Assembly: GCF_025175675.1 (NCBI RefSeq)
Contig: NZ_JANIOA010000009.1
Coordinates: 61,659-125,658, forward strand
Source of the DNA: Sedimenticola hydrogenitrophicus
Lineage (GTDB): Bacteria > Pseudomonadota > Gammaproteobacteria > Chromatiales > Chromatiaceae
Direction of reading: 5' to 3'
Length of the DNA: 64,000 nucleotides
In this document: positions 12,133 to 13,230 of the stretch, one piece after another
How positions within the stretch are numbered: the first letter of the stretch is position 1
How the letters are laid out: the number at the start of each line of letters is the position of its first letter
Made by a program: the position numbers and the translations under genes
Notes under the pieces: model-generated
Seen by the model: the letters and a program-made list of their open reading frames with translations, nothing else
Told to the model about the DNA's origin: nothing
Databases searched by the model: none

Positions 12133-12981
<849 letters not shown>

Positions 12982-13009: not shown

Positions 13010-13015
13010 ATTATA
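13010..13015 (-). promoter_or_regulatory. rpoH -10 box TATAAT
   Basis: On the minus strand a perfect TATAAT directly abuts the proximal CIRCE element. A start about 20-25 bases before the rpoH ATG would give a short leader. The -35 region lies inside the CIRCE and is weak. Confidence 0.6.
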
Positions 13016-13042
13016 TTAGCACTCTTGCATATAGGGTGCTAC
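13016..13042. promoter_or_regulatory. CIRCE-like HrcA operator, proximal to rpoH (imperfect)
   Basis: TTAGCACTC, 9-base spacer, GGGTGCTAC. The left half matches the CIRCE consensus exactly and the right half has two mismatches to GAGTGCTAA. It sits next to the rpoH -10 box. Confidence 0.75.
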
Positions 13043-13048
13043 TACATA

Positions 13049-13075
13049 TTAGCACTCGGGGGGTGGGAGTGCTAA
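13049..13075. promoter_or_regulatory. CIRCE HrcA operator, distal to rpoH (perfect)
   Basis: TTAGCACTC, 9-base spacer, GAGTGCTAA matches the CIRCE consensus in all 18 positions with the canonical spacer. It lies 33 bases further upstream of rpoH than the first copy, about three helical turns centre to centre. Confidence 0.92.
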
Positions 13076-13150
13076 TGGCCAGATTGGTTCCCGGCAATTC
13101 CAAATATGGCTTTCAATAGTCGTTTAATTATCCAGGCCCAGTTAATCAAG

Positions 13151-13230
13151 GAACCACGGATGGACACGGATTCACACAGATAGGCGATCAGAATTCTGAA
13201 TCTGTGTTTATCTGTGTGAATCCGTGGTTC
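13151..13230. repeat. Dispersed hairpin repeat (GAACCACGGAT...ATCCGTGGTTC)
   Basis: An 80-base imperfect palindrome pairs GAACCACGG and GGATTCACACAGATA with TATCTGTGTGAATCCG and CCGTGGTTC. This motif is a widespread bacterial intergenic repeat. It lies between ftsX and the rpoH operators and may end the ftsYEX transcript. The remaining bases to 13420 show nothing recognisable. Confidence 0.65.

Follow-up and report, generated by a model that had tools for sequence, protein, structure and literature searches.

Predicted HrcA operators before rpoH in Sedimenticola hydrogenitrophicus, the distal one overlapping a sigma-E promoter-like sequence

The textbook model of the gammaproteobacterial heat-shock response derives from Escherichia coli, and in other bacteria GroEL keeps the repressor HrcA active. 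The promoter rpoHP3 of E. coli rpoH is described as sigma-E dependent (PMC2215328, PMC3490749), and the SigE of Bordetella is reported to transcribe its own rpoH (fam) in vitro (PMC3490749). The groESL operon of proteobacteria is presented as being under dual control by CIRCE and sigma-32 (PMC545781, PMC3989490). For Geobacter sulfurreducens an earlier study had predicted a CIRCE ahead of rpoH (PMC545781); HrcA control of rpoH is therefore not new in principle, as the initial annotation of the present DNA had suspected.

The locus of Sedimenticola hydrogenitrophicus described here shares with the Geobacter HrcA/CIRCE regulon the operator consensus and the targets, namely groESL, hrcA-grpE-dnaK-dnaJ and rpoH (PMC545781). 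However, the part of that report consulted gives one site at the Geobacter rpoH and does not mention an overlap with sigma-E, whereas here two sites precede the gene and the distal one overlaps a sequence resembling a sigma-E promoter, an arrangement shared by many families of Gammaproteobacteria. The likeness to E. coli rpoHP3 consists of GAAC, a spacing of 16 nucleotides and TCNNA before rpoH (the E. coli K-12 upstream region reads GAACTT-N16-TCTGA), and ftsX is the next gene upstream in both genomes. No CIRCE is present in the E. coli rpoH upstream sequence that was read, and E. coli, included among the control genomes, gave no HrcA match. As in the dual control of groESL, a repressor and an alternative sigma factor would act on one operon; there, however, the repressor meets sigma-32 at a chaperone gene, while here its site would coincide with a sigma-E promoter of rpoH, which encodes sigma-32 itself.

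The features of the window, by which we mean the whole analysed stretch of 64,000 nucleotides, are the following:

12133..12981, minus strand: rpoH, encoding the 282-aa heat-shock sigma factor RpoH (equivalog model TIGR02392, 399.1 bits against a cut-off of 323.1)
13010..13015, minus strand: TATAAT, directly next to the proximal CIRCE and predicted to be a housekeeping -10 (GTGCTAATATAATACC is unchanged across an alignment of six genomes)
13013..13021, minus strand: alternative extended -10, TGC-TAATAT, formed by the right arm of the proximal CIRCE and the next three bases
13016..13042, minus strand: proximal CIRCE, GTAGCACCC-N9-GAGTGCTAA, predicted weaker HrcA operator, 2 mismatches
13049..13075, minus strand: distal CIRCE, TTAGCACTC-N9-GAGTGCTAA, predicted HrcA operator, 0 mismatches
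13064..13068, minus strand: predicted sigma-E -10, TCCCA, half inside the left arm of the distal CIRCE, at N16 spacing from GAACCA
13085..13091, minus strand: predicted sigma-E -35, GGAACCA, 5 of 7 to GGAACTT

The closest named RpoH among the matches listed belongs to a Sedimenticola MAG (93% identity). The initial annotation had placed a perfect and a two-mismatch CIRCE directly upstream of rpoH, about 33 bases apart, with the second touching a TATAAT box, and each of these details is exact, the start-to-start distance being 33. The proximal site is separated from the rpoH start codon by 34 nt. This pair comprises all the CIRCE with up to 3 mismatches in the window; the chance expectation is a mean of 0.01 per window, and two sites occurred in 0 of 100 shuffles, so that a chance palindrome was rejected. 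In an alignment the distal CIRCE is identical in the four nearest relatives and carries one change in G067. The counterparts of the proximal CIRCE in the nearest relatives have 3-5 mismatches, and its left arm drifts within the genus from 2 to 5.

The genome (4.7 Mb in 132 contigs) contains four CIRCE with up to 3 mismatches: the rpoH pair and single sites ahead of groES and of hrcA. The presence of hrcA and of a CIRCE at groESL, which the initial annotation had proposed to check, was thus confirmed, and an absence of hrcA was discarded as an explanation: the HrcA product matches both the DNA-binding domain (PF03444, 29 bits, cut-off 21) and the C-terminal domain (PF01628, 223.7 bits, cut-off 22.2). 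Downstream of hrcA, on the same strand, lie grpE, dnaK and dnaJ (grpE and dnaJ were named by eye). Motifs read by eye are a sigma-32-like CTTGACT-N13-CCCTAT in the groES upstream region, in addition to its own CIRCE, and TTGACA-N17-GATAAT ahead of the CIRCE of hrcA. Since both chaperone operons, groESL and hrcA-grpE-dnaK-dnaJ, retain a CIRCE and the sigma-32-like sequence is found at groES as well, a feed-forward loop is predicted. The simple series circuit, in which the two heat-shock systems would be wired in series instead of in parallel as first proposed, was therefore rejected.

CIRCE before rpoH are widespread. Among the matches listed, 23 of 80 named rpoH loci have a CIRCE with up to 5 mismatches upstream. 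In the 50 named genomes searched for hrcA, which comprise all 23 with the site and 27 of the 57 without, both gene and site were found in 22, only the site in 1 (L026), only hrcA in 1 (L049) and neither in 26. The sample from the family of the window held 96 genomes, 91 of them with a strong rpoH match (G013, G014, G021, G039 and G089 had none), and 90 upstream regions were used, G001 being omitted. A CIRCE with up to 3 mismatches was found in 52 of the 90, 47 from hrcA-positive and 5 from hrcA-negative genomes, and all 38 genomes without one are hrcA-positive; related genomes are non-independent samples in these and all other family and class counts. The 38 genomes imply that hrcA can persist without control of rpoH and that, within the family, hrcA is no predictor of the site. 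The recurrence of CIRCE before rpoH in many genomes supports the proposal of the initial annotation that HrcA represses rpoH, although repression as such is predicted from sequence.

The five family genomes with a CIRCE at rpoH in which an hrcA match was not found (G005, G011, G060, G088, G094) have a completeness of 69-98% and may lack contigs. In G080 (L098) the hrcA match (G080:C1:1943323-1943834) is split into two parts, of which the second contains stops, and the distal site at rpoH deviates at 5 positions; this could be decay or an assembly error. In G036, of the same genus, hrcA is matched without a break and rpoH has two better sites.

A side-by-side reading of the rpoH regions revealed GGAACTT just ahead of the distal CIRCE, a sigma-E promoter-like sequence that the earlier reading had left out. 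In the window it takes the form GAACCA-N16-TCCCA, with the same 16-nt spacing as at E. coli rpoH. Its -35 matches at only 5 of 7 positions, which makes the use of sigma-E in this very genome less sure; some of the nearest relatives have GGAACTT or GGAACTA there, and GGAAC is kept across the genus. The genome encodes RpoE (TIGR02939, 319.1 bits), and the next gene is rseA (RseA_N, 63.8 bits). A scan with the sigma-70 consensus gave no promoter at the CIRCE, its two hits lying more than 110 nt upstream of them.

The 75 CIRCE-bearing rpoH regions (52 from the family and 23 named) reduce to 70 distinct ones, of which one is short of upstream DNA. GAAC starts at position -15 relative to the CIRCE in 40 and at -16 in 7, that is, in 47 of the remaining 69, but at these positions it precedes only 1 of 30 groES and 0 of 31 hrcA control CIRCE. 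The groES control consists of 30 fetched loci rather than every groES match; the hrcA control leaves out 22 of 53 loci, some of them short of upstream DNA, in which no CIRCE with up to 3 mismatches was found at a distance of 400 nt or less from the BLAST-projected start. At such a spacing the sigma-E -10 would be composed of the last TC of the left CIRCE arm and the first three loop bases. The third loop base is A, giving TCNNA, in 38 of the 47 GAAC-embedded rpoH CIRCE as against 9 of the 61 groES and hrcA controls (Fisher 3e-12), and in 8 of 35 rpoH CIRCE not preceded by GAAC. The idea that GAAC and the loop A form a flank common to all CIRCE was rejected, as the combination is nearly absent at groES and hrcA. 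Taken together, GAAC and the loop A give GAACTT-N16-TCNNA over the rpoH CIRCE, the layout of E. coli rpoHP3. We therefore predict that the distal HrcA operator is laid on an rpoHP3-type sigma-E promoter sequence of rpoH.

The promoter-like sequence also occurs on its own. Of the 57 named regions in which rpoH lacks a CIRCE, 24 have GAAC-N18-TCNNA within 350 nt, compared with a mean of 0.6 and a maximum of 4 in shuffles that preserve base composition only, which indicates that a sigma-E-type promoter exists independently of the operator. In 24 of the 75 CIRCE-bearing rpoH regions no CIRCE stands at the embedded spacing. Sixteen of these 24 (13 of 19 from the family and 3 of 5 named) have GAAC-N18/19-TCNNA elsewhere in the stretch that begins 60 nt ahead of their first CIRCE.

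The pattern GAACTT-N9-CIRCE, with up to 3 mismatches, was matched by 188 of 369 genomes of the class, a loose figure, since the search also admits CIRCE whose -35 is poor. Of the 150 matches listed, 82 have an intact GAAC, which amounts to at least 81 genomes from 44 families (families counted by hand). The third loop base, which is outside the search pattern, is A in 75 of these 82 and in 23 of the other 68. All 24 GAAC loci that were fetched lie 14-70 nt upstream of rpoH in the same orientation. Six loci lacking GAAC were fetched too: one precedes rpoH in the same orientation, two stand ahead of rpoH but read from the opposite strand, two are at groES, and one gave no match to the three genes tried. 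An hrcA gene was found in 78 of the 81 GAAC-composite genomes (hand count; G239, G322 and G373 gave no match) versus 268 of 369 overall. A second scan of 299 genomes of the phylum, with up to 2 mismatches and 212 genomes outside the class (hand count), matched 12 genomes, two of them outside the class and neither of those with an intact GAAC. It added five new GAAC loci, four before rpoH and one before clpB, so that among the fetched GAAC loci of both scans 28 of 29 precede rpoH on the same strand. The exception (L304:1501-1542 of G217, a gammaproteobacterial genome) has GAACTT and a perfect CIRCE 107 nt before the clpB reading frame, and the layout is thus not confined to rpoH.

The initial annotation had regarded the tandem arrangement as notable. 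The two sites are real, but the pair is not peculiar to this genome, as 12 of the 75 CIRCE-bearing rpoH regions have two CIRCE, each with up to 3 mismatches, at a spacing of 31-34 bp. An additional CIRCE with up to 5 mismatches lies at +31 to +34 in 15 of the 47 regions with an embedded CIRCE, while the 123 other offset windows tried gave 0 each. A Kangiellaceae MAG (L084:2833-2890) has a tandem of CIRCE before rpoH, 31 bp apart, with no GAAC at the embedded spacing. The rpoH CIRCE without GAAC differ from the others in their bases: the third arm base is G (TTGGCA) in 22 of 35, versus 2 of 30 at groES, 3 of 31 at hrcA and 7 of 47 among the embedded sites, and a T stands three bases past the site in 34 of 35, versus 0 of 30, 6 of 31 and 30 of 47, respectively. 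Together these bases yield TTGGCA-18-TAAAAT or TAATAT, which is sigma-70-like; the T is common at embedded sites too and therefore does not single out the proximal one. Across the six aligned genomes GTGCTAATATAATACC does not vary, whereas the left arm of the proximal site drifts; that operator may thus be weak in these genomes, and some of its conservation may be that of a promoter. The simplest reading of the two-site layout would be one operator per promoter.

We consider it probable that HrcA represses rpoH through two CIRCE, the distal one covering a sigma-E promoter and the proximal one a housekeeping promoter, in the manner of a feed-forward gate. The predicted sigma-E -10 lies partly inside the distal CIRCE, and the housekeeping promoter likely shares bases with the proximal one. 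When GroEL is free, HrcA would bind the CIRCE and block RNA polymerase with sigma-E or sigma-70 at rpoH; when GroEL is occupied by unfolded protein, HrcA would be released and rpoH transcribed. Sigma-32 would then add to the effect of HrcA release at groESL and hrcA-grpE-dnaK-dnaJ themselves. Under envelope stress, sigma-E would bring rpoH to its full level only when the cytoplasm is short of chaperone capacity as well.

One alternative is that HrcA does repress rpoH, but that the two sites, some three helical turns from each other, work together as a cooperative pair, and that sigma-E has no role in this genome. The narrow spacing of 31-34 bp, the weak -35 of the window and the tandem of the Kangiellaceae MAG speak for such a pair. 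However, GAAC and the -10 triplet stand at a fixed spacing in most relatives, GGAAC is kept in the genus and many rpoH regions have a single site, so we regard this explanation as unlikely. Still less probable, in our estimation, is that the CIRCE mainly hold or titrate HrcA, or just trim rpoH, while the level of the sigma factor is set post-transcriptionally, as in E. coli, with a small effect on heat shock. Post-transcriptional control is established for rpoH of E. coli, and the 38 of 90 family regions that have no CIRCE in spite of hrcA imply that the link is dispensable; yet the distal site lies across the predicted promoter, not beside it, and is kept across many families. That the palindromes match by chance or are bound by a factor other than HrcA appears very improbable given the chance mean of 0.01 per window, their agreement with the groES and hrcA CIRCE of the same genome and the excess of hrcA in the GAAC-composite genomes. 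Nothing speaks for it directly, the sites without an hrcA match (five family genomes, L026, G239, G322 and G373) belonging to possibly incomplete assemblies.

The two-promoter reading of this locus can be extended, and here we see the chances as even, to many Gammaproteobacteria that bear HrcA. In these the HrcA operator would be built into the sigma-E promoter of rpoH through shared bases, forming a gate that fires strongly only with the envelope-stress sigma factor active and GroEL-dependent HrcA off, and the repressor-free promoter of E. coli would be a stripped-down form left after the loss of hrcA. If this is true in many families, the sigma-E, HrcA and sigma-32 systems are one circuit there and the wiring of E. 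coli is a special case. What may be new is the overlap of promoter and operator, together with its spread and the layout with two promoters: no description of an HrcA operator on a sigma-E promoter of rpoH was found in the open literature, searched by title and opening abstract, a scope beyond which most subscription papers lie. The 2003 study of beta-, gamma- and epsilon-proteobacteria by Permina and Gelfand, cited in PMC545781, may include CIRCE at gammaproteobacterial rpoH, and RegPrecise may have rpoH under HrcA.

Between ftsX and rpoH the window also holds an inverted repeat (13154-13227) that is built from a dispersed element. A reversed control pattern has 0 matches in the genome, while one arm of the repeat (ATCTGTGTGAATCCGTGG, up to 2 mismatches) is present in 115 copies, 56 forward and 59 reverse.
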